The notes beneath the pieces are model-generated. The model saw only the letters and a program-made list of their open reading frames with translations. It was not told the origin of the DNA and ran no database searches. Positions 127 through 31,880 of a stretch of 64,000 nt of DNA are shown here, in pieces; position 1 is the stretch's first letter; each line of letters begins with the position of its first letter. The position numbers and the translations under genes were made by a program. This stretch comes from Owenia fusiformis (taxonomy: Eukaryota > Annelida > Polychaeta > Sabellida > Oweniidae). The stretch covers positions 29,625,915 to 29,689,914 of the forward strand of contig CAIIXF020000001.1 of the NCBI GenBank assembly GCA_903813345.2, given 5' to 3'.

Positions 127-2159
127 GAAAGTTAATTTACTTGTTCCATCAAGTCTGGTCTGGTCAATCAAAAATAAATAATACATTTAACCTTAATAAT
201 CGACAAACTACAGATGGCGCTGAAATAGCTGAAAACTTTAATAATTTCTTTAGCTCTATTGGCAATAAACTTGCAAATAAGATTCAAAGCAATGCTGATC
301 CAATGGTAAATTTAAGAAAAATTAATTCAAATGATAAATCACTCTTTTTATCTCCTGTAACAGAAACTGATGTTAAGAATCAACTTAAATCTTTGAAACC
401 TTCTGCTGCTTCAATAGACGATATTAAGCCCTCAGTTGTCAAATTACTAAAAGAATCTTTATCAGCCCCACTTACACAGATTTTTAACCTGTCAATCTCT
501 ACTGGAACATTTCCTGATGCATTGAAAATTGCTAGAGTCATTCCTATATTTAAAAAAGGTTTAAAAGAAATTTTTAATAACTACAGACCCATTTCTATCT
601 TAAGTGTATTTTCTAAAATGTTGGAAAAAATTGTTCATGATAAGGTTACCGTATTTCTTGAAAAATATGAAATTTTATACTTACACCAATATGGCTTTAG
701 GAAAAAACATTCAACATACATGGCCCTTTTAAATTTCATTGAAAATATTAGAAAGTCTTTAGATACAGGGAAAACTAGTCTTGGTATTTATATTGATTTA
801 TCTAAAGCCTTTGACACCGTTGATCATAAAATATTATTACAAAAACTTGAATTCTATGGCATTCGTGGAGTAGCTCTTTCTTGGTTCACAAGTTATCTTG
901 AAAATAGAAGAATCATCACTGAATTTACAAAGAAGAATGTTTCACTTGACCAATTTACAGAGACTGATGTGAAATATAGATCAATTGAAAATACAGTTGA
1001 ATATGGAGTACCACAAGGGTCGGTAATAGGCCCCCTCTTATTTATAATATTCATTAATGACATATATCTCGTCTCAAATAAACTATCCTTTGTTTTATAT
1101 GCTGACGACACAAATATTGCGCTTACTGACAAAAATATTGAAAATCTAGTCATTGAAATGAATGAAGAATTACAAAATGTCTCAAATTGGATGAAGGCAA
1201 ATAAACTAACTCTTAATGTTGAAAAAACCAAGTTTATGATATTTAGCAATAAAAGAGATCTGAACGACAAGAATATTATCCTTAAGATTGACAATCAACC
1301 AATTGAAGAGGTGAAAGAAATTAATTTCCTTGGCGTTATCATTGATTCAAAGTTACACTGGTCTCCTCACATTAATGCTATATGTACAAAAATCTCTAAT
1401 TTGATTGGTATAATATACAGGACTAGACATCGACTGACCTTGAATGCCATGACTACAATTTATTATTCAATGATTTATTCTTACTTAAGCTATGGAAATA
1501 TCTTATGGGGAAATGCCATAAAAACACTCATTCAGAAATTATATATTTTGCAAAAGAAATTCTTAAGAGTCATTACGTATTCTGATAGCTGTGCCGCTTC
1601 AGGTCCACTATTTCAGAAGCTAAAAATTTTAAATGTATTTGATATACATTCCCATCAAACAGCTAGCTTTGTACAAAAAACACTTTCTGAATCGCCTGAT
1701 TTTCCTTTTAAAAAATTCAACCATCTTTTCTCATTAAGATCAACAATTCACTCACATGACACAAAATCAAAAAATGATTTGATTGTTCAACCTTTTAGAA
1801 CAGAATATGGAAGAAAATCAATCGGGACAAGTGGCCCATCAATTTATAACTCTTTATCTACTGATTTGAGAAACTCAATTCATATAAAAATGTTTCAACG
1901 AAAGTTTAAGTCCAATTTGTTAAGTCATTATTAGTTAGTTTGAACCATACTTCCACTATGTTACATCAAGATAATTAAAAATGTATGCTTTGTAAATTTG
2001 TACATTACAATAACTGTTCTAACATGACATGCTTTATGTATAACACATTTTATTTTTTCAAAACATGGAATCCATACACCCCTCGGGGTGTCCTTTTCAT
2101 ATCACTTGTAAATTAATATTGTATGAAAACTAGAATTGAATAATAAATAAATAAATTGA
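126..2159 (+). mobile_element. 5'-truncated LINE (CR1/Jockey-like) with open reverse transcriptase frame
   Basis: A non-LTR retrotransposon remnant. An open frame of 597 codons runs from 141 to 1934 without interruption. It holds the reverse transcriptase: YRPIS (residues ~148-152), IYIDLSKAFDTVDHK with the first catalytic Asp at ~219, GVPQGS (~289-294) and the YADD box (~320-323). The C-terminal tail (PLFQKLKILNVFDIH and after) is typical of CR1/Jockey-group elements. The codon at 141 is TTG and an in-frame stop lies at 123-125, so the frame is not a native start. The endonuclease domain expected upstream is missing, which is ordinary 5' truncation. The 3' UTR has a perfect 7-bp stem hairpin (ACACCCC/GGGGTGT, 2076-2091). 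The element ends in an AATAAA-type repeat tail (2141-2157), as CR1-like LINEs do. It probably lies in a 5' intron of the CYRI gene, in the same orientation. The exact clade cannot be fixed by eye. Confidence 0.88.
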
Positions 2160-2732
2160 AAAGTTAAATGGAGCTTGTGTTTTATATGCTCCTTAGTCCT
2201 TCCTCAATTTACAAATGACATCTTGCAAATGATGTAAGGTTAGAATAGTTGCCTTGGAATCTCAAGGTGCTATCACTAATGGAAAATGTCAGAACAAGTT
2301 TTGTTTGATCATTTATTAGGATGCCAGTGTGAATCCTTAGACAGTTGCATGAAATATGCAATTGCTTCTGTCTATGTCAGTTTTATTTAATAGGATTTTA
2401 TTGCTGGTTATTGAATAATTCAACTGATTCTCTGAGCATCTTATCAACCAAGCAAGCACATTCTAAAGTGGGAACTGACTTACTAATTTCCTTAAACTGT
2501 GCAACAATAGTGATCTAATATCTCACAGTTCTGGATCCTTTGACAAGACCATTTCAATTTCATATCAGTAAAACTATGCAATCAATAAAGCAAACAAGAA
2601 AGTTCTCTCTAAACTACAATGCCAATAGTGCTTGAGAATTAATCAGGCATTTGGTCCATTAGGAAGAATGTAATCATTGAGATTGCATTTATCATGAAGA
2701 TACCAAATTCAGATTTTTCACTTGGAATTTGT
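2160..2732. other. Intron-like interval, nothing recognised
   Basis: This is AT-rich sequence between the LINE tail and the 9-bp-TSD element. I see no exon of the CYRI N-terminus and no other feature in it. Confidence 0.4.
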
Positions 2733-3099
2733 GTTACCATATACCCTTTGCATTCGTTTGACTTCACTTCTTAAAAGAGAGCTTCGTCTTCACTCTTTCA
2801 AACTAAAATAAACCTGTGAACTCACCGCGCCAATCAGTGTTCGTCGGCAAAATTTGACCGACGTTCTATATATGGTCATTCCTTCTGACGTCATCGCTGA
2901 GCCCGGAATTGACCAATGACATGCGCATATTTTATTAGAACGCATTTGGCGTATGTTTCTTCAAGCTCGCTGATTGGTGGAAGAAATACCCAAACTGTCA
3001 CCGGTACCCGTCGTGGAGGCGGGGCTACTAAACTGAAATATAGTCTCTACTAGGCAGAGTGTAGTTTAACTAGACTCTGCGCGCAGGGTAGTTACCATA
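2733..3099. mobile_element. Non-autonomous DNA element with 9-bp target duplication, long copy
   Basis: The element itself is 2742-3090 (349 bp). It is flanked by a perfect 9-bp direct repeat GTTACCATA at 2733-2741 and 3091-3099. Its ends are short inverted repeats (TACCCT...AGGGTA). The interior is more GC-rich than its surroundings and contains a TGACGTCA palindrome near 2885. It encodes no protein. A shortened relative lies at 38659-38734 with its own, different 9-bp duplication, which confirms both ends. A 9-bp duplication suggests a Mutator-like (MULE) or Merlin-type transposase acting in trans. The very short inverted repeats leave the superfamily open. Confidence 0.8.
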
Positions 3100-3991
3100 C
3101 AGATACATGTATTTGACAATATCGACAATATTTCCATATTTCCATGATAAAATTTGGGTCCTAACATGGGAGGAAGGATTGTGAGCAGGTTTTTGTTGTA
3201 AATAAAAGTAACATATATTCAACTTTCACCAGCTGGTTTGACTCCTTAAACAGTTTATAGACAAACAATTACACAAGTAACAATCATCTGTCCTTTTCAT
3301 TTACTAACTTGAAACAAAGCACTATTTCAGCAGAACACAACCAGAAAAGATCACACTGCACACAATGAGCTGTTTTCCACGTAATCTAAGGAAATCAATT
3401 GTCTTGTTCACCAAATGAAGCAATAATGTACTCCCAGAGTGAAAAGGTCACCCAAAATTGTTTTACTCTATTATATTTCTCCAAAGTATTCTTATTTAAT
3501 TACTAAGTTGTCAAATTGTTAATTGCCATAGACAGCTGTTAAATTGAAAGAGCAATGGTCTGACAATTGTATTATAGGTATATGTAATAATAAATTATGC
3601 TTCATTGATTTTGTCCCGATGATCAATATGTACTCTTCCCTGTTCACTTCTTTAGTCAATTTGTAGATGTCTAAATAATAAATCAATCTTTGAAAAATAC
3701 TCTTATAAAATACCTCTAGCTAGTCAATACCTTCCTCTGGACAAAGTAGTTGTATACCTACATGCCTACAATACATAATACGTAATACGTAAGCAACCTG
3801 TATAGAATTATTCTTCAGAAGAGGAAGTATTTCATCAATATATTCATTGTTTATGTAGGTTCCCAATATACTTTCCTTCTGTATCTATGACCTTCAATTC
3901 ACTTCATTTTCTAGAGTAAGTGATTATGAACCCAGTATAATAGTCAGACATCTTTACCATGGAAATTCAATGGTGATGTATATATTTTCAG
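3100..3991 (+). other. Intron sequence upstream of the first visible CYRI exon
   Basis: AT-rich sequence ending in a splice acceptor (TATATTTTCAG, last bases 3990-3991). No earlier CYRI exon is visible here, so the N-terminal exons should lie before the window. Confidence 0.5.
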
Positions 3992-6900
3992 GCGATCAAC
4001 AATCCTCGCAATGAGGAACAGCAGGAGAAGGCAATGAGTGTGGTGGTCCCACTGGTCTCACAGCTCAAGAGATACTATGACTTCTCACTACACTTAGGTA
4101 AGCCATGTTGGAATATGATGTAATTTCATATCTTTATTATGTTACCACCACCATGGTATTCTGCATTTGGTGGTCAGTGTCTGTAACAAATGGCAGCTTG
4201 TGACATTTTGCATGTTAATGCCTTGTTCTTAATATTGAAATTTTATATTTTTTCTTATTCTGTTTTGATCATGTGCTGATCATTCAAAGCATTGTACATA
4301 GTTTTAGCTATTTTGAGCCAAAAGAAAATATTATTTTTGAGCTTTTGAAGGCTTGATGTATCATAGCCTTTCTCTACCTACCACAAAGAAGGTGGGTCAT
4401 AGCTATGAACCCTAAGTCAACAAAAATACATTTCAGATAATTAAATTCTTTGTCTTTTCAGAAAACATGATTCCACAGGTCCTGAGAGAGCTATGTAACA
4501 ATGAATTGACTCCCAAGCTCCATCTCGAGCAACAACAAGCCCTTTTCAAGCAGTTTGCAGAGATTATAGACTTTACATTAAAGTTTGATGACCTTAAGGT
4601 AAATTTTCTAAATGCAACATACCATAAAGCCCATGAAAGTTTCAGCGCTGCAACGCATATATTGTGATGACAAATTGTTATAGTCTATAACTGTGTCTGT
4701 AACAAATGGCAGGTGGTGACAATTTGCATGTTTATTCCTTGTTTATATTTGAAATAGAACTTAAGCATACTAGCTGACTGTATAATTTTTGTAATGTTAA
4801 ATGTAATGCCTTATGAATATTTCAGATGTCTAACCCTGCCATACAGAATGACTTTAGTTACTACAGGCGGACTTTGGGGAGAATACGCATGGCTAATGAG
4901 GTAGGTACCAAGATAAGTTAGTCATTTATGTGTGGAACTGATTATTAAGTAAATGTTTCTCTTTGACTGCATATTTTTTTACATAGTTAAAAGGTACAAA
5001 TACAGGGTGGGATAATAAAATTCAGTTTTTTGTGACTTACTTTTAAAACCTCCATTATAATACAATTATTAATTTCCTGAATGTTTGGTCAAGTTATCTT
5101 GTCCATATTACATGTACTTACATTTCATATAAAAAGACAATGAATGTTTTGCAGGAATAAAGAACAACTTTCTTATAAACATTGAAAATGATGTTTAGCC
5201 CACCCTGTATTTTATTTCAATTTACCAAATTTTTACATAAATATTGAGTGTACATGTATGTAGAGAATCTTTACCTTTAAAATGCATGGATTTTACACTT
5301 GATCTCTCATATACATAGTATTTTACATATGCTCCATCTATTTAAACAAAAACAATTTTTGTTTGTTAAGGCTCAGGGAATTGTGGTGAGTTGTTGTCAG
5401 CATGTGCTCAGTACAAAATGTGCCGACCATGTTCTGAATGTGCTAAGTTATGTGTAGAGCATGTGCTCAATTACTAAATGTGCTCAGTAACTAAACAGAC
5501 ATCTCATTGTTGTTGTATTAGGCATTGCATTGTTATCTGCAGGAGTTTTATAGAAATTATCATTGCATACTGTGCCTTCCTTAGTACAGAAACTCCATAA
5601 TTTTTCCCACTTTGGACAAGGATTGAAATAGTTTATACCTGCGGTGGTTTTTAAGTCCCAGTTTCCATTTGGAACCTCTGTAAGTTTCACCTATGGAGCA
5701 TTTCTTGCCACACTATATGTGCAAGCACTTTATTTTCGTTGTAATTTTTTCTGTGTATGTGAACACTATTTTACCATAAGCTGGTATATGAATGCTCCAA
5801 AGCTTATTACAATCATCGCATGCATTGCATTTCTACATCAATACCATTTGCTTTTTTACACAAATTTTTCTCCATGTTGTATGTAGGTAGGTATGTTACA
5901 ACAAAAGAACCACTATTTTTATATGTCTAAGAGTCACTCTATTCACACCTTAAATATAAAGTCATCAAACTTGCTCAAAATACTTTTGAGATTTGTTTTT
6001 GTAAAATGTCATTCATTCTTGATTTGCTGGGATATATTTGGTTCTCTTGTCCACTTGACAAAGAAGGAGTCCCATTTCAGTGTTGTCTGGGTACTAAGTT
6101 CAGTGCAAACTTTCCTCTCCTTTTATTAACCTCCCTAACTTTCCAAATATCAAGAGATATTTTTTAAGTTATTACATAATTTATCAAACCAAATCAAATT
6201 TTCAATGTGTGTTTGTGTTGCCAATAAAATTACCACATTATGTTAATATTATTATTTAATGTATTAATATCATTACTTGTTTATTTCTTTATTTGTCAAT
6301 GTTTATGATTTGTTACAGGACCATGATGAACAGTTTGACGTTGATAATGAAATGGCCAATAGGATGTCTCTATTCTACGCTAATGCTACTCCCATGTTGA
6401 AAGTCCTTAGTAATACTACATCGAAGTTTGTCTCAGAGGTAAGTTGTACAATACATGTATGTGAACAATAAATGTACAATGCGTGAAAAATCTGTGTACA
6501 ATATACAAAGAATAAGGGTACAACAAATGAACAATAAGAGTCCCATACATGAAAAATCAGTGTACAATATGCCAATAATCAGTGTACAGTATATGAACAA
6601 TGAAATTACAAGATGTGAAAAATCCATTATGATAAATGCACAATGCACAAAATGAGCAATAAGACTAATAACATGAAATCATGCTTACTTTAAGTCATTA
6701 ATACATTGTTTAATGTTCCAGAATAAAGACCTACCTGTAGAGAACACCACTGACTGTCTCAGTACTATGGCTAACATATGTAGGGTTATGATTGAAAACC
6801 AGTAAGTAGATATCTGCATTATTTTACTTTATGTTATTTAAACTATTGACTCTATTGTTCAATGATTCCAAGTGAGGTGCCAATCTGAAGGTAAAATATT

Positions 6901-8995
6901 GATAATCAGTTTTATGTTGATAATTGTATTCAACAATTGCTTCAAAATTTTGAATCTTGATAATGATAAATTATCATTACAGTAAAACTTGCCAAGTGGA
7001 ACAGCTAACTTGTCAAGTGGAGCAGCTCTTTAAGTGGAACACCTTTGTTAATGGAACACTTTTTTATGTTCATATTTTTTATATTTAACTCAGGTTTTAA
7101 TGTTTTTGTTAGAAATCATCAGGTTTTAATGCATATCTGCTCATTTTCTTTCAGTAATTACAGATCTCGAATCACAAATGATGACACAATATTATTTATA
7201 TTGCGAGTTATGGTTGGTGTAATAATCCTCTACGACCATGTACACCCAGTAGGAGCTTTTGCTAAATCTTCCAACATTGATGTAAGTATGATTAGGTCTG
7301 ATGGGGTGGTGTGGGTTTGGATTGTATGGTTTAACTATAATGTAGTCAGGCATGTGTTTCAGTTGTATTCGTTCTAGTTGGATATGGAGGGATATACCGT
7401 ATTATCGCCTATTGGCGCACACTCCCTTATAAGCGCACATGCGACTTTGGAAACATGACAAACATTTGTGATCAGAGCAAAAGAGTAGGAAAACTTACAG
7501 AATAACGATTTTTTAACTCACCAAATTTCATTTCCGGGTAGGAAAATCCAACTTCCGGTCTGCGCAAACTTTGATGCGCGGTAGTTATTATGACGATAAA
7601 ATAAAAGTCAAAACTTTTACCTGATAAATATCGCAATATTTCTTTATTTTACCAATAGTTGGTCCTTTAAAAACGTAATATGATGGTAAAATACGACACA
7701 AGACATGATTTGGCGTGAAAAAACAGTAAGTAAGATAATATTCATTTCAAACCTTCGAATTCTGATTTTCACATATTATCGCCCAATCAAAATGATAACT
7801 TATATGTGCGCTTATTGGGACTTTATTGGATTGATTTCTCTCCAATTCCATGTTATTTCACCTCAATTTCACAAGCGCACTGTGCGCCAATAGGCGATAA
7901 TACGGTAGTTGGGTTTTGTATGTCATTGGTTGTTGAGTATGTTTCATTTTGTCGTGGAGCTCACGGTTGAGTGACATAATGACATGTATTAAAAAAAAGA
8001 AACAACAGCACTGTTCACTCAAGGTGTCCTCAATGTGACACGAGGATTCTCTCATATTAGGACTTTAGAAGTCTTATACAGTAGCAATTTATACCATCAT
8101 TTATCATGTATGCAATTATTATTCTGTGTTCCGTGTATAAACTGTTTTCAAACATACTTGTAATTATCATAATGCTATTGTGAATTTTTGTTTGTTTTAC
8201 AGATCAAAAGTTGTTTAAAGGTTTTACAAAACCAACAGACTGCACGTGTTGAAGGTTTAATGAATGCTTTAAGGTATGTCAAACTTTATACTTTCCTATT
8301 TTTTGCTTTAGTTAAGACTAACATAGATAAGTAGTTAAATTGTGAGGTACTAATGAACTATGGACTGAGTGTAATGTACTAAAAAATCTCATCACAGTTG
8401 TCCGTGGAATATGATGCTGTAACATCTTTTAATCGAAGTATCTGAAGTTAGACTAGGTTTTCTAGAAAGCTGATTTAACAGGGTTTTTAGGATAATTGTT
8501 CTATTTGCTTCTATTTCTTGAGAATGTTTGTACATCTATTTCATATCTTTTAATTCTGGATGATATTTGTAACACATTTGATAATGTTTTATTAATTCTG
8601 GCAGTGTCTTAGTGTATCTTATTCTTCATGATATTAGTGCCATATTTGCTTTGTATTGTGTTTGTGGTTCACATAACATGGTGTCGGTGGTGCTTAAGCA
8701 TCTTGCTATACTATAATTATTACAATTTGTTTATTAAATATACATTTAAAACACCTAGTTGCAATGCGATAACATTAGTGATGTGTCTCATAACATTGGT
8801 GACGTGTCTCATTCTCATAACATTAGTGATGTGTCTCACAGCATGTATGGTTTGGCTTTTTCTGAGCACTTATTTGTTCATTGAGGAAGATGCAATTAAG
8901 AAATGAGTAAATGACCCCTACTGCCTTTCAGGTTCACAACTGTACATTTGAATGATGAAACAACGCCAAAAGGAGTGAAGGCATTACTAGCATAG
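3992..8995 (+). CDS. CYRIB: CYRI / FAM49 orthologue (CYFIP-related Rac1 interactor), last eight coding exons
   Basis: CYRI proteins are cytosolic, membrane-associated proteins that bind active Rac1 and restrain the Scar/WAVE complex, limiting lamellipodia (known for the family). Eight exons join with consistent phases and GT-AG borders: 3992-4097, 4462-4598, 4826-4900, 6319-6438, 6722-6801, 7155-7281, 8203-8273 and 8932-8995 (stop TAG 8993-8995). Together they give 259 residues, matching human residues ~66-324 in length. The match is residue by residue over long stretches: [55 protein letters not shown] and HLNDETT. The YYRR pair equivalent to human CYRI-B Arg160/Arg161, needed for Rac1 binding, is intact (exon 4826-4900). 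The first ~65 residues, including the N-terminal myristoylation site, are outside the window. Vertebrates have two paralogues (CYRIA, CYRIB) and an invertebrate would usually have one, so the symbol denotes the family. Confidence 0.96.
4176..4245. repeat. Short interspersed repeat, copy 1
   Basis: Shares the phrase TGTCTGTAACAAATGGCAG and the following GTGACA-TTGCATGTT-CCTTGTT with 4692-4756 in the next CYRI intron. A weaker copy lies at about 15950-16002. No inverted ends are clear, so the repeat family is unknown. Confidence 0.6.
4692..4756. repeat. Short interspersed repeat, copy 2
   Basis: Same repeat as 4176-4245, in direct orientation and separated from it by the exon 4462-4598. It could be an old mobile element or a duplicated intron segment. 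Confidence 0.6.
5001..5209. mobile_element. Mariner-like MITE in a CYRI intron
   Basis: Inverted ends TACAGGGTGGG (5001-5011) and its complement (5199-5209) include a TA on each side, as expected for a Tc1/mariner insertion. The length is 209 bp with no coding capacity. The CAGGGTG terminus resembles mariner ends. Confidence 0.7.
6449..6655. repeat. Degenerate tandem repeat in a CYRI intron
   Basis: The phrases TGTACAATAT, TGAACAATAA and GTGAAAAATC recur at irregular spacing just after the exon 6319-6438. Its low-complexity frames on both strands are not genes. Confidence 0.5.
7395..7907. mobile_element. Pogo/Tc1-mariner-like MITE in a CYRI intron
   Basis: The ends are perfect 25-bp inverted repeats (7395-7419 and 7883-7907), beginning TACCGTATTATCGCC and including the flanking TA. 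The length is 513 bp. A second motif, AAGCGCAC, also appears near both ends. TA targets and an ACCGTATT terminus fit non-autonomous elements of the Tc1/mariner-pogo group. The identical ends suggest a fairly recent insertion. It lies between the exons ending at 7281 and starting at 8203. Confidence 0.85.
8769..8837. repeat. 21-bp tandem repeat, three copies
   Basis: The unit ATAACATTAGTGATGTGTCTC occurs at 8769-8789, 8790-8810 (two changes) and 8817-8837, in the last CYRI intron about 95 bases before the terminal exon. Confidence 0.85.
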
Positions 8996-25433: not shown

Positions 25434-25632
25434 CGACATCGCGAGCGTAGCGAGCGCGAAAAATTTGAGGTGATCAAAGTTTGGCAAAGGTGCTCAAACT
25501 TTGGCCAAAGGTGTTTAAAAGTTGGCCAAAGGTGTTCAAAATTTGGACAAAAGTGTTCAGATTTGGACTTAGGTGTCCAACATTTTGAAGTCACTCATAT
25601 TAGGTGGTCCCAAGTTGACAGCCCTGGTCTGT
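25114..25632. mobile_element. 507-bp non-autonomous DNA transposon with 6-bp target duplication
   Basis: The element is 25120-25626. Inverted ends CAGGCCTGTCAACT and its near-complement AGTTGACAGCCCTG are flanked by GTCTGT on both sides (25114-25119, 25627-25632). The left half has several TGTCACGC motifs. The middle has a run of 29 consecutive C (25400-25428). The right half is a tandem repeat of about 26 bp built on GGCCAAAGGTGTTCAAA (25467-25586). No transposase is encoded. CAGG termini are hAT-like, but hAT elements normally make 8-bp duplications. Confidence 0.82.
25467..25586. repeat. ~26-bp tandem repeat inside the 507-bp element
   Basis: About four to five diverged copies of an AAAGGTGTTCAAA-TTTGGCC unit. 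They give a repetitive pseudo-frame on the plus strand and should not be read as protein. Confidence 0.75.
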
Positions 25633-27175
25633 ATACTGTACAGAATGGGAAAGTCATCTCCTTTAGTCTAAAGAAGAGAAGTGTAGTAGCAGGGCCGTCA
25701 GATGGGGGGGGTGCGATGGGTGCGACCGCACCCCCCTTTGTCACCCCCCCCAAAATAAATTTGAAAAAAAAAAATTGAAATTTTTTTTTTTTTTTTCATT
25801 GACTCATACACTTTGAAAGTACCCAGAAAGCACCAAATAGCATCTTAAAATTGTAAAAATTTTCTAGGGGTATTGGCCACCCCTCACACCCCCCATAAAA
25901 CAATGGAAAAGTTCTAAATTTATTTTAGTGTTTTGTCTCAGACACTTTTAAAGTGCCCAGACATCATCAAATAGCTCCTTGATCACTGGGGAGTATCGTG
26001 ATGCAACAACACCGTGTTGTTGCATCAAGATGGCCAGACTTCCGGTGATAGATTTTCGTACGATATTTTGTTTCCCAAATTAAACCCATTTCTAGGACGA
26101 GTTGCTCAATAACCATACACGTGCAGTTAGCGCACGATCTATATTTAAAGAAACTGTCATTAGTATACATGTACCATCACCAAGAAGCAATAAGTTCACG
26201 GTTTTAGTTCCTCACTATTGATGCAACAACACCAACCCGAAGATGCAACAACACTCCTCTAGATTTGAGCAATGATGCAGCAACACCAATTAATATTATA
26301 ACTTCAGAAGACCATAAATCTCGAGAGGAACAGATTTTTAAATGCTACTATTGCAATACCGTTACCAATTAGCCTACCCATATTTGCGTTCTTCTCAAGG
26401 CATTCAATATTTTCAAACATTTATACTTTTACATACTATAATGTACTGGACGTTATTCTATAACATAGTTCAATCGCCTTTAACATGACATGCTTTAGTA
26501 ACCCAATCTATTTTCATAAACCACTGTTCCATAGCTTGATGACCCTGACTCCAGTTAGTATCATTCAAAATGGTGGACAAACATCTTTCGTTCTCGGTAA
26601 ACATGATGAGCTATTGGATATTATCATGATATTATCTGTCATCCATCTGTGGAACAGTGATAAACTAGTAGATGTACGTTACCACTGTTTATCAAATTAT
26701 AACTAAAACAGTTTAACTGTGACATTCGTGAGCTTATGTTGATGGGATGATTGCTTCATCTAAGATATAATATGATATGATTCTTTATTTCCTACAATTT
26801 GGAGAGCCAACGTGTAAAAACGTCTAATTGACTTTATTAGAGAGGCCGTTTAGTTACACGTTTAATGGAAATCTTGCACGACGCACATGTAGAATTATTG
26901 CTCTCTTTGGATTCCTTCTCTCCGACTGAGTAAAAAGGTAAACAAAAGTGATAAAATTTAGGGCCCAAAAAGGTAAATTGATAGGGGTACAGTTATCCCA
27001 GATATCCCGGGCCCTCGGGAAATATCACATTGTCTCTCGAAATAAAACCAATATTGAGTCCCTCTCAGTAAATAACTTTTATATAATAGCATTGTATAAC
27101 TGCAATATCATTAAACCAACACTCATCCTATACAACCCAAGTGAAAAAAGTCAATGGGAAAATATTGACAATAAA

Positions 27176-27512
27176 TAGGTAATACTCTATTAATTCTTAG
27201 CTAACAAATACCTAAAAAATTTATCATGCAAATTAGAGAGAATTACGTTAATAAATAGGTGTTAATAATAAGGTATTGTTAACATTCAACGCTCATGTAG
27301 AATATTGACTGATTATCAAATGAAAATTACATTGTAACAATAAGGTAAAATTAGAAATCTAATAATCATGTATTTATTATCTTCCAATAATAAGCTATAT
27401 GTTAACAGAATATTACCTAAATATTGTACATATTTATTGTGGTAATATTCTCTAATTTGCATGATAAATTTTTTAGGTATTCGTTAGCTAAGAATTAACA
27501 GAGTATTACCTA
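27176..27512. mobile_element. 337-bp TA-flanked MITE nested in the 4.57-kb element
   Basis: Arms of 71 bp at 27176-27246 and 27442-27512 are inverted repeats with only a few mismatches, beginning TAGGTAATACTCT. Counting TA as the target duplication, the element is GGTAATAC...GTATTACC, as in Tc1/mariner-type MITEs. No protein is encoded. Sequence resembling its interior (AATAAATAGGTGT-AATAA, ATTCAAC) recurs near 28670-28720. Confidence 0.8.
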
Positions 27513-27734
27513 ATTATTAGCTATTTAAAACCTATTTGTTGCATTACTCTTACCCAAGATGCATTATGGTCTACAACATTTATTTTCTACTATAAGAACC
27601 AAAAACATTAAATAATATGTAAAATTAGGTGGGTAGGGACACACAAATTCGAAGTAAATATGTGACGTATATGTAATTCGCGTGAATATTCAAATCTGGC
27701 CATGCAAAGCGTATAAATTAATTCATGGCAAATT

Positions 27735-28020
27735 CTCTTGCAAAACTATACAGATTTTGTCAAAAATCTCCCACAAAAGTACCACTTTTTGCAGAATTTA
27801 CCGCAAAAACTATTGCGTTTATTAGAAAAAAAACTGGAGATAATCCGCTTTTTTAAAAAAAGTACCGGTTTATTTCAAATCTACCGTAAAAACTCCAGTT
27901 ATTTCACCTCAAAAACTCCCGATTTTTTAAAATCTACGGCGAAAACTAACAATTTTTTAAAAAACTTCCAGATTTTGTAAAAATCTCCCGTAAAAGTACC
28001 ACAATTTTTGGAAATCTCAA
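27735..28020. repeat. Degenerate ~35-bp T/A-rich repeat
   Basis: The phrase CAGATTTTGTCAAAAATCTC, followed by CCGCAAAA-type blocks and ACCAC, recurs in diverged copies. The plus-strand frame across it repeats NLPQK and is an artefact. Confidence 0.6.
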
Positions 28021-28944
28021 GCAAATTGTTCATTTTAGGTTGGCCCTGGGTATGTAAGATGATATAAGCAATTATTATGGGACATCACTGGTAATTTTAC
28101 CCATCGATCAGAATTGTACTGAAGGCAAGAAGGCTCACAGTTATTGAAGGACCCTCTAGGCCTCCAGCAGTATTTATCTTCATAATCTTTATAAAATACC
28201 TTATATTTTTACTGCATGGTACAATTAGTCATACACAACACATTTATGCTTGACCACTTTGACTGTATGAATAGAATTAAAATTTAGCCTTTATAAATTC
28301 AGAAAGAAAAGAAGATTTGCCCATCTAAACTGGAATAAAACAGCAATACTTACATTTTACCTCTCACAAAGTAGACATGCAGAATGTTCAAGTATGTCAG
28401 TAACTTCTGAATCTATATTTGATTGGTCATTTTCATACTATTGTTATAAAATCATAAAATTACCCAAATCTCTTACAGTTGAACATTCTTTGTCAGCCAT
28501 TTTTCTTTTGGTTTAAAAAGAGCGGGAAAGTTAATATTTTGCTAATACTCACTGCCACATTTTTTTAAGTCCAATCTTAACAATTAGCTAATTTTTATCC
28601 CCTGGGGTAGCAAGGATGACAAAAAGTTACCCAATTATTCAAAGAGCATTATAACATAGTTGTTAGAATAATAAATAGGTGTAATAAATAGCTATTTATT
28701 GGCATTCAACTTTCATTGATTTAATGCTCATTTAACAAATAGGTTAACTTTTATCAAAATGCATAATTATTAGACCAAAGTTAACCAATTATTACATGAG
28801 AATTGCCATTTCTTTTTACTTGGGAACTCTTGAGAACGATCTACAACTCCTGGATAGCGTAAACTCCTGAGCAGCGTATACAACTCTTCAACTTGATATA
28901 TGACATCATACTTTGGGTGGGATAACAAAGGATATACAATATAC

Positions 28945-29075
28945 AATTGAGGTCAACTGGCAAAACTGTATACCGATACTGTGAACCTTGAAAGTACTGT
29001 TGATCAAGACCAGATGTCGAGGACACTTTTGCCAGTTGACCGAAAAGAGAGGTTAACAATTGTTCTGTTAGTCCA
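28945..29075. repeat. Hairpin repeat in the 4.57-kb element, shorter copy
   Basis: Starts GAGGTCAACTGGCAAAACTG and ends with TTTTGCCAGTTGACC and AACAATTGTTCTGTTAGTCC. It is a shortened relative of 29290-29457 in the same orientation. Confidence 0.65.
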
Positions 29076-29289
29076 AATAATATAATAATTGGACGAATAT
29101 ATAATCGAATATCACGTGAACATATTTGATAAGTAAAGGTATCATATTTTAGCAAAAAATCCCCAAACCGTCGAATACTTGTAATTTTTTACACAACTTA
29201 TTTTTTCAAAATTAAAAAAATTTCAACATTAAAAAAAACAATTTTTCAAAAACAGGGGTCAACAGTACCTAGTAGTGGTCAACAGTTTA

Positions 29290-29457
29290 CAATTGTTGAC
29301 CTCCCCAGAGGCCAACCGGCAAAATTGTATACCGAGACTGTAAACCGAAAAAATACTGTTGACAGAGACCGAAGGTCGAGGTCAACAGTAGTTTCAAGGT
29401 TTACAGTCGAGGTATATGATTTTGACGGTTGATCGAATGGAGAGGTCTACAATTGTT
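29290..29457. repeat. Long imperfect hairpin in the 4.57-kb element
   Basis: Main arms 29311-29363 and 29381-29434 are inverted (GGCAAAATTGTATACCGAG...ACTGTTGAC against GTCAACAGT...TTTTGACGGTTGATC). Outer arms are CAATTGTTGACCTC and GAGGTCTACAATTG. Identity is about 80 percent by eye. Confidence 0.65.
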
Positions 29458-29820
29458 TTGTTAGTCCGAGTAAACTAATAATACACATATAGACGACGAT
29501 CATCAATCGGCATGGCTTCATTTCACAACCTTTTCTCCGAACCACTTTAGCAATATTTTTTTTAGAAAATATGGAGACAGTGCAAGAAGCTTAACTCTGT
29601 ATTTGGCACATCACGGCGTACTCGTTAGTGAATTAATGTTAATTTTAAGTTTCTATTTGTATTTTTGCTATACTTGTCGCCTAGTAAAGTCATTTTCATC
29701 ACCATTTACAAAATGTCCGTCTTCCATGTTTTTTTGTGACGTCATGAAACTTTTTTTCAGAAGTAGCGGTCAACAGTACCTAGTAGCGGTCAACAGTACA
29801 TAATTTTGACCGCTAATCAT

Positions 29821-29922
29821 CCAATCAGAATCGAGTATTTCAGTTGAGGTACTAACAATACATTTTGTTGCCCGCTCATCAACCAATCAGAATTGAGTAT
29901 TTCAATTGAGGTACTAACAACA
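29821..29922. repeat. Direct duplication, ~40 bp, two copies 62 bp apart
   Basis: CAATCAGAATCGAGTATTTC and the following GTTGAGGTACTAACAAYAC occur twice with a few differences. Confidence 0.75.
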
Positions 29923-30558
29923 CAAAATGACTGATATCTGTTGTCTTTCCAAAACTATATTAGTTATTTGTAAGCAATTTCCATACGGTAAATCAAGGGC
30001 ATTTAATTTAGAAAATGTATAATCTTTACTTTTCAGATACAATATCAATGAGATTGCCTCCCGGGGATTCTATACTTTATTTAGTTTGCCTTGTATATCC
30101 TTTTAACTTTGATATAGACAAAGAAACCAAACAAAATACGTTTCGTTCATGGACCACTGACTCACGCGTTTTATTCATGTCCCGACCTACACCTGTAAAC
30201 AGAACATAAAACAGTTTCTCTTGTTGTTCAATGATACGTACATTATATTGGCGTTTTTGCATCAGCACATTGGTGTTGTTGCATCATCGATAAGAAACAG
30301 AGTGGTGTTGTTGCATCAATAGTGAGGAATTAAAACCACGAATTTATCGCTTCTTGATGATGCTACATGTATACCAATGACAGTTTTTTAAAATATAGAT
30401 CATGTGCTAACTGCATGTATATGATTATTGAGCAACTCGTCCTAGAAATGGGTGTAAATTGGGAAAACAAAACATCGTACGAAAATCTATCACCGGAAGT
30501 CTGGCCATCTTGATGCAACAACACGGTGTTGTTGCATCACGATACCCCCAGTGTTGAT

Positions 30559-31880
30559 ATAGTTAGTGTTTCTGGGGGACTTGCTCCCCCTCTTGCATCT
30601 TGCACTTGCATAGACCCCCCCCCCCCTCTGGCGCCCCCCCCCCCCTTGACCCCCCCCCCAAAAAAACCGTGATTTTCTCAAATTCTTTAATTGACTCATA
30701 CACTTTGAAAGTGCCCAGAAAGCACCAAATAGCGTTGTAAAATTGTAAAATTTTCTAGGGGGAGTGGGCCACCCCTCACACCCCAAACAAAACAATGGAA
30801 AAGTTCTGAATTTGTTTTATGTACTGTCTCAGACACTTTTAAATTGCCCAGACATCATCATCATCCTTGATAAAGTTAATGATTCTGGAAGACTAACACT
30901 TACTCGCCCTCTGGCATCCCCACTCCACCTCCCCCTCTGGCAGCCCCCCCCCCCCCCTTAACACCCCCCCCCCCCCCCAAAAAAAATTGACTTTATTGAC
31001 TAAAGTGCCCAGAAAGCACCAAATAGCATCTTAAAATTGTAAAATTTTCTTGGGAAATAGGCACTTTTAGGCACAGACACTTTTAAAGTGCCCAAACTTC
31101 ATCGAATAGCACCTTGATATTGTACATTTTGATATGGGGGACAAACACTTGCTCCCCCTCTGGCACCCCAGCCCCACCTCCCCCTCTGGCACCCCCCCCC
31201 CCCCCCAAAATTTGAAAAAAATTGTGATTGTTTTTCAATGTTTTTATTGACTAATACACTTTAAAAGTGCCCAGAAGCACCAAATATCATCTTTAAATTG
31301 TAAAATTTTCTAGGAGAGTTAGCCACCCCTCACATCCCCCACAAAACAAAAGAAAATATTCTGAATTTCATGTATTGTCTCAGACATTTTTTAAGTGCCC
31401 AGACATCATCAAATAGCACCTTGATATGGTCAATGTTTCTGGGGGACAATCCCTTGCTCCCCTACTGGCACAACACCCCACTTCACCCTCTCATCCACTT
31501 TGACAACCCCAAAAGAATTTGAAAAAAATACACATTTTTCTTATTGACTCATAACGCACAGGCGTACCAGATGGTTGCAAATTCGCTCCAAAAACAACCA
31601 AATTTCAAAATTTTCCTGGGGGAGAACCCCCAGACCCCCCCCCCAAATGCTAGGTTTTTTATTCACTCAACTCTTATTCCCATGGTGGTGGCGTACTACT
31701 TGGAAACTTACACTTTGAAAGTGCCCAGAAAGCACCAAATAGCATCTCAAAACTGTAAAATTTTCTAGGGGGAGTGGATCACTCCTCACACACCCCCACA
31801 AAACAATTGGAACTTTTGGAAGTTGCATTTGTTAATTCCAAACCAATATAGGGAGTAACTGAGCCCCCCCCCCCCACTCT
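30559..31880. repeat. Tandem ~290-bp units with poly(C) tracts
   Basis: Four units follow the nested insertion. Each has the order: CTTGCTCCCCCTCTGGC, a C-rich tract, an A/T-rich spacer, GTGCCCAGAAAGCACC, TTTTCTAGGGGGAGTGG, then GTGCCCAGACATCATCAAAT. Spacings of the landmark are 294, 262 and 454 bp, the last being 297 bp after subtracting the 157-bp insert. The fifth unit lies left of the insertion at 25750-25983. Confidence 0.85.

Follow-up and report, generated by a model that had tools for sequence, protein, structure and literature searches.

The Inserted Element and Its Arms

The window, i.e., the whole stretch of 64,000 nucleotides of Owenia fusiformis DNA that was analyzed, carries a complete transposable element with two inverted arms and a direct repeat on each side. 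Its features are as follows:

25979..25983, no strand: target-site duplication TTGAT, left
25984..30553, no strand: the whole non-autonomous element (4570 bp), oriented opposite to the family consensus
25984..26287, + strand: left arm (arm A), comprising a terminal inverted repeat (TIR) of ~253 bp and inner motif copies
25984..25998, + strand: left outer terminus, CACTGGGGAGTATCG
25999..26027, no strand: left palindrome, 29 bp, two inverted motif copies flanking one central base
26219..26233, + strand: left-arm motif copy, exact, +236 from the end
26241..26255, + strand: left-arm motif copy, 2 mismatches, +258
26273..26287, + strand: left-arm motif copy, 1 mismatch, +290
27136..28824, no strand: 1689-bp insertion within the element, with ends CCCAAGTG..ACTTGGG and AA on each side, absent from the family consensus
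30250..30553, - strand: right arm (arm B)
30250..30264, - strand: right-arm motif copy, 2 mismatches, +290
30272..30286, - strand: right-arm motif copy, exact, +268
30304..30318, - strand: right-arm motif copy, exact, +236
30511..30539, no strand: right palindrome, 29 bp
30540..30553, - strand: right outer terminus, 14 bases, one G short of the usual 15
30554..30558, no strand: target-site duplication TTGAT, right

Both ends of this copy read CACTG, and the TIRs of ~253 bp are ~92% alike. As originally predicted, each end begins with CACTGGGG..TATCG and continues into the 29-bp palindrome. The palindrome had been called perfect; its inverted motif copies are present at both ends, but one central base is unpaired. 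Likewise, the predicted inner copies are there, three in each arm, although three of the six carry one or two mismatches. The claim that the unit moved as one piece into the satellite was borne out: TTGAT flanks 25984–30553, and when the element and one TTGAT were deleted in silico, the satellite unit was restored and aligned across the junction with two neighboring units. The description of a large element holds for the complete 4570-bp copy but not for the family, whose consensus is only ~3.1 kb; the 4.6-kb length is due to the 1689-bp insertion and does not represent the family size.

A Young Family with No Transposase Frame in Its Consensus

The outer 29 bases of the element matched exactly at 521 places (247 + 274) in the 498-Mb genome, compared with 0 + 0 for the reversed pattern. 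Similarly, the motif TGATGCAACAACACC occurred 743 + 798 times, compared with 0 + 0 for its reversed control. The abundance of both patterns is therefore not due to chance.

Could the unit be an artefact of assembly or of the satellite? The window copy does lie in satellite-like DNA. On the other hand, the 521 exact ends are spread across many contigs, and 30 copies sit in different flanks, each with its own duplication. These observations refute the artefact, which we consider to have practically no probability.

Almost all of the arms that we read follow one plan, CACTGGGG(G/A)GTATCG and then the 29-bp palindrome formed by two inverted TGATGCAACAACACC copies, with three further copies near +236, +258 or +269, and +290. 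These positions were constant across 48 arms with few exceptions, as expected from the predicted repetition of subterminal motifs. The other copies read also ended in CACTG, which the selection pattern itself contains. Both ends were found by pattern in 30 of the 32 loci tested, in agreement with the predicted single mobile unit with fixed ends. Locus L041 had a broken right end, with one end reading GACTG and no duplication, and L044 had no left end.

The family looks young and non-autonomous. The median divergence of the arms from the consensus was 0.9–1.5%, and, among the best 40 of 737 candidate arm matches, 34 were printed as 100% identical over 283 bases (0–1 mismatch by bit score), which indicates recent movement. 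The ~3.1-kb consensus contains neither a long frame nor a transposase frame. We have filed the element as a new non-autonomous TIR family, without placing it in a superfamily.

Two Duplication Lengths at a Palindromic Target

A perfect direct repeat flanked every one of the 30 two-ended copies; in L048 and L067, which have extra ends inside, the outermost ends were taken for this count. The duplication is not fixed at 5 bp as first proposed, being 5 bp long in 16 copies and 6 bp in 14. The 30 complete copies occupy 30 different, AT-rich targets. In the empty-target half-sites, C was found at −1 in 41/60 (p = 7e-18) and A at +1 in 52/60 (p = 4e-18). The two classes carried both signals about equally (5-bp class: C in 21/32 and A in 29/32; 6-bp class: C in 20/28 and A in 23/28), which makes it improbable that the 6-bp class consists of 5-bp repeats lengthened by a chance match. 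Furthermore, TT or AT preceded 288 of the 521 ends genome-wide, whereas ~21% would be expected from the flank composition (p = 2e-65). The A seen at +2 in 31/60 sampled half-sites was not a preference genome-wide (148 TT vs 140 AT, p = 0.68).

The target is thus a palindromic C^A...T^G site, and the two duplication lengths probably arise because such a site allows two spacings of its half-sites. As a rule, duplication length is taken to be characteristic of a superfamily. One young family that combines 5- and 6-bp duplications with a clear palindromic target offers a natural test of what determines that length.

How might the family move? In all likelihood, it is a non-autonomous family of cut-and-paste DNA transposons with long TIRs, moved in trans by a transposase that recognizes the motif and joins the ends to C^A...T^G targets. 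We infer the following route. A transposase supplied by another element would recognize the ends, most likely through TGATGCAACAACACC, the putative binding site, which is present five times per arm: two copies stand in inverted orientation at the tip, and three direct ones lie ~220–275 bp further inward. The transposase would then pair both ends, cut at 5'-CACTG and join the ends into the palindromic target, with strand transfer between the C and the A of the half-site on each strand. Depending on the half-site spacing, 5 or 6 bp may be left between the cuts, and repair would convert them into duplications of 5 or 6 bp.

Multi-site binding of the transposase is plausible from the motif array, which makes the idea directly testable at each end. 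Motif conservation, at first put forward as proof of binding, was given up as such. An early test looked strong for arm B, but the motif itself had contributed to the sorting of the arms, and 7 of the 60 dropped out. When all 60 were sorted without this bias, the inner motif copies did not differ clearly from the rest of the arm, either in arm A (1.9% vs 2.3%, 109/259 shifted masks as good) or in arm B (2.1% vs 3.1%, 43/259). Leaving out four structurally broken arms gave 42/259 for A and 8/259 for B; the 21 of the remaining arms from loci chosen by the outer tip alone gave 85/259 and 36/259. Any extra conservation of the inner copies relative to the remaining arm sequence is thus slight at most. 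Helical phasing of the motif spacings (220, 22 and 32) was also considered, and the evidence was judged too weak for a claim.

The Source of the Transposase

Could the mover belong to the CMCT clade (CACTA/EnSpm, Mirage, Chapaev, Transib and RAG-like transposases), which acts on CA...TG ends? The family ends, CACTG...CAGTG, suit this reading, as do the 5-bp copies, since RAG-like duplications are nearly always 5 bp (PMC7204232). On the other hand, 14 of the 30 copies have 6-bp duplications, and the protostome RAG-like consensus, CACTWMCAAAC... (PMC7204232), differs from CACTGGGG beyond CACT. The genome search for the clade covered the Pfam RAG1 model alone, which had no match in the genome and was equally silent in 14 of 14 controls. 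We regard a CMCT mover as possible but doubtful.

A hAT5- or hAT6-like transposase would account for duplications of 5 or 6 bp. hAT ends usually start with CAG, whereas those of the family start with CAC. At least 137 hAT dimer-domain matches are present in the genome; with four on small contigs dropped, none of the other 133 came closer than 12.6 kb to any of 138 listed end positions, which represent a minority of the family ends and in a few cases repeat one end. Such hAT families, some duplicating 5 bp and others 6 bp, have been described and fall among the animal hATs (PMC12730594). Moreover, in the hAT element Hermes, many BED domains are reported to touch the left end of the transposon (PMC10368747); such subterminal contacts by many DNA-binding domains resemble what the motif array here would offer. 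On balance, we consider a hAT mover unlikely.

A third candidate is a cut-and-paste transposase from a lineage not yet described, whose stagger would flex between 5 and 6 bp. The terminus, the mixed duplications and the C^A...T^G target jointly match none of the families in the limited set of published descriptions compared. Such a lineage is rather improbable, and a specific form of it is a shade more so: here the transposase would tolerate variable spacing between the two C^A half-sites that it reads and would assemble on five motif copies at each end, ten in all, starting with the inverted pair at the tip. A CMCT or hAT partner, if found, would extend that group; a partner belonging to neither would represent a new lineage.

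For the preferred reading, a non-autonomous family moved in trans, an autonomous member with a transposase between the same ends had been proposed as the thing to look for. None was recognized among the 30 complete copies and 20 further inner samples (12 mid-pair and 8 inward of an end). Ten of these samples were entirely consensus, five were matched over part of their length and one was a segment common to L040, L053 and L065; the remaining four matched none of the sequences compared and had no open frame >86 aa. At the curated Pfam cut-off, there were no matches in 10 frames (9 of the 12 consensus frames ≥60 aa and one insert frame), nor in eight longer insert frames from long end pairs (one or two each from L051, L052, L053, L064, L065, L066 and L069; none from L054 and L068). 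These nine pairs, considered as autonomous candidates, all carry inserts, several of which are repeats or other elements and others uncharacterized. L067 proved to be a composite, and the C7 pair, taken for a long copy, is actually two separate elements, one of which was read (L059). In L070, part of a 13-kb pair, one frame was read by eye as gag-like.

We also searched the genome with exclusion patterns, aimed at the family tip joined to a foreign interior; these need several positions to differ at once and therefore pass only ~1/3 to 2/5 of unrelated flanks, so that zero matches are not proof. Within this limit, neither the palindrome with a different inner flank nor CACTGGGGNNTATCG with all four of the following family bases changed had a match. 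The pattern for arm A next to other inner sequence gave one, a deletion derivative. The same tip without the palindrome gave two: L057, a bare terminal fragment, and L056, an old copy, ~86% alike, in which an insert interrupts the palindrome, the interior mostly matches other repeats and no partner end follows within the next 8 kb.

Comparison with Known Systems

The original prediction that the element fits no superfamily cleanly was upheld: its termini resemble those of the CACTA/Chapaev/Transib type, and its duplication lengths resemble those of hAT5/hAT6. CACTA and Chapaev (CMC) elements have CACTR termini, which CACTG..CAGTG fits, but their duplications are 2–4 bp rather than 5 or 6 bp. 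Mutator-like non-autonomous elements share the long inverted repeats and the largely non-coding interior but have duplications of ~8–11 bp. Polinton/Maverick elements end in AG and enclose a large coding region, whereas this family has CACTG termini and no long consensus frame.

Published CMCT duplications are 2–5 bp (PMC12730594), and those of MuDR and IS256 combined are 4–10 bp (PMC10045372). Transib and RAG-like elements are described with 5-bp duplications (PMC12730594, PMC7204232), a length found here in only 16 of 30 copies; the variable length counts against a Transib or RAG-like reading. hAT5 and hAT6 share the 5- or 6-bp lengths, but the published description gives them in separately named groups, whereas both occur within one family here, with a terminus of CACTG instead of CAG (PMC12730594 for the lengths and groups). 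IS3EU elements have TIRs and 6-bp duplications, but the fungal families described in that text end in TAYGG..CCRTA (PMC12730594), not CACTG..CAGTG. The 6–7-bp duplications of Dada overlap the 6-bp class; however, Dada-U6 is without TIRs and Dada elements with clear termini lie in small RNA genes (PMC3706591), whereas this family has long TIRs and varied AT-rich targets. As in class II TIR elements generally, inverted terminal repeats with fixed ends were found in 30 of 32 loci, together with a duplication of set length, which in this family takes two values, 5 and 6 bp, rather than one.

Structure of the Element

The element in the window belongs to a non-autonomous transposon family with terminal inverted repeats (TIRs) that is ordinary in kind. 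It is unusual in some details: mixed 5- and 6-bp duplications accompany a well-defined C^A...T^G target, and each end also carries a regular array of five motif sites. The original prediction of shared ends, a palindrome and inward motif copies was confirmed at both ends. Each opens with CACTGGGG..TATCG. Next comes a 29-bp palindrome, in which two inverted copies of the 15-base motif TGATGCAACAACACC are arranged about one central base, and each arm has 3 extra motif copies ~220–275 bp inward of the first. The inverted repeats are ~253 bp long and ~92% identical.

25984-30553: window copy of the element, TTGAT on either side
27136-28824: insertion inside the window copy, 1689 bp, own inverted ends CCCAAGTG..ACTTGGG, AA on both sides

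The predicted TTGAT duplication and restored satellite unit were likewise borne out: deletion of the element and one TTGAT restores the local unit, which aligns across the junction with two neighbouring units. The extra length of the window copy relative to the family consensus is due to the insertion at 27136-28824. This insertion contains 91-bp inverted arms (27170-27260 and 27428-27518). Across 25500-31200, satellite-like units with C-rich tracts and common text such as CACTTTGAAAGTGCCCAGAAAGCACCAAATAGC surround the element; elsewhere in the window, a 597-aa open frame (141-1934) resembles, as judged by eye, a non-LTR retroelement reverse transcriptase.

Family Size, Age, and Coding Content

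The 498-Mb genome contains 743 + 798 occurrences of the 15-base motif and 0 of its backwards-read pattern; the outer 29 bases have exact matches at 521 places. The first 100 of these matches include 40 facing end pairs (median spacing 2990 bp), 34 of which span 2.0–4.5 kb. When a 283-base arm was searched, 34 of the best 40 of 737 candidates were displayed as 100% identical, their bit scores suggesting 0 or 1 mismatch. The median divergence from the arm consensus is 1.5% for arm A (the left arm in the window copy; 28 arms) and 0.9% for arm B (the right; 25 arms), excluding 7 of 60 arms left unsorted in that analysis. The low divergence and near-identical arm matches point to recent movement of the family.

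The consensus from 11 copies comprises 3085 bases, a few flanking bases included, and has no stop-free frame longer than 94 aa. None of 10 frames (9 of the 12 consensus frames of at least 60 aa, plus 1 insert frame) reached the curated Pfam cut-off, the sole weak match having a score of 15.9 bits where 27 was required, and 8 longer frames taken from inserts gave no Pfam matches. The family thus looks non-autonomous. A second interior type is common to four loci (L031, L039, L041, and L052).

Target-Site Duplications

Both ends were present by pattern in 30 of 32 loci tested; L041, whose right end is broken and which lacks a duplication, and L044, which lacks a left end, were left out of the count. 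Each of the 30 two-ended copies, the later loci being partly selected by length, is flanked by a perfect duplication; its length is 5 bp in 16 copies and 6 bp in 14, so the 5-bp duplication originally predicted does not hold as a family rule. Extra ends are present in L048 and L067, where the outermost ones were taken. L048 has a tandem pair of left ends with an identical flank, ending ATGGTT, in front of each; ATGGTT recurs beyond the right end. L067 is a composite that combines a full copy with a right half, and ATAAT is present only at its outer borders.

Could the sixth base be a chance match beside a 5-bp repeat? Such a match would displace the half-site signal on one side. In the empty-target half-sites of all copies, C stands at −1 in 41/60 and A at +1 in 52/60; the counts are 21/32 and 29/32 in the 5-bp class and 20/28 and 23/28 in the 6-bp class. 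Since both signals appear in both classes, a genuine 6-bp class is very probable. Among the 521 genome-wide ends, TT precedes 148 and AT 140 (TT/AT expected ~21%); these equal counts give no genome-wide preference for A at +2, although the sample had hinted at one (31/60).

Motif Array and Putative Transposase Binding

Could the repeated motifs serve as multiple transposase binding sites, as originally suggested? The regular array was upheld in 48 arms from 24 elements: counted inward from the element end, the first motif and its inverted partner start at +16 and +30, and the first inner copy at +236/237, followed by +258 and +290 in arm A and +268/269 and +290/291 in arm B. Departures from this plan include L037, L036, L038, L046, L048, the left arm of L052, and the right arm of L051; in the window copy, the motif positions at the right end are also shifted by one.

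If needed, the inner copies should vary less than the remaining arm. In a first test, with arms sorted partly by motif and 7 of 60 lost, arm B gave 0 vs. 2.9% (1/259 shifted masks as good), and arm A was weak (17/259). With motif-free sorting of all 60 arms, the values were 1.9% vs. 2.3% for A (109/259) and 2.1% vs. 3.1% for B (43/259), and the strong arm-B conservation was given up as evidence of binding. Without 4 arms broken by other criteria, they were 0.9% vs. 1.9% for A (42/259) and 0.8% vs. 2.7% for B (8/259); among the arms retained, the 21 whose loci had been chosen solely by the outer tip gave 85/259 for A and 36/259 for B. Putative binding at the motif copies is thus suggested by their repeated arrangement rather than by demonstrated conservation, and confidence is slightly lowered on that account.

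Search for an Autonomous Partner

As had been proposed, copies were collected and a consensus was built, but the autonomous member sought was not found. Four patterns for the same tip with a different interior, each passing only part of the unrelated flanks, gave 0, 2, 1, and 0 matches, none a working lead. Long end pairs proved to be insert-bearing copies, a composite, or adjacent elements. A further 20 samples included 4 that matched no compared sequence, and these 4 had no open frame longer than 86 aa. hAT domains gave 0 of 133 places within 12.6 kb of 138 listed family-end positions, a minority of all ends. The partner may still be present in the genome, as the copies read are a minority of the family.

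Several loci hold other structures. L044 has a 286-aa open frame between two element fragments (1463-4443), by capture or chance rearrangement. L051 carries a 4.6-kb insert (3189-7827) with inverted arms of ~1.25 kb, 86% alike. The L065 insert (~1391-5080), partly common to L053 and L067, has two 454-bp direct repeats, 99% alike, resembling a small LTR element. In L057, a bare ~19-base terminal fragment of the family end (~1515-1533) adjoins, in a fusion, a repeat built of CGGTAGTTTTTGC-like units.

Comparison with Known Systems

Among the paper titles listed for the CACTGGGG terminal inverted repeat, for joint 5-/6-bp duplications, and for CACTG/CAGTG termini, none concerned such a family. 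Dada and IS3EU fail as matches on termini or target. RAG-like elements almost always have 5-bp duplications, and the terminus of the family does not agree with that of protostome RAG-like elements (PMC7204232); IS481EU is reported to have discrete duplication lengths within one family, ~4, 15, or 25 bp (PMC10045372). The nearest described groups by duplication length are hAT5 and hAT6 (PMC12730594), and by termini the CACTA/Chapaev/Transib group is nearest.
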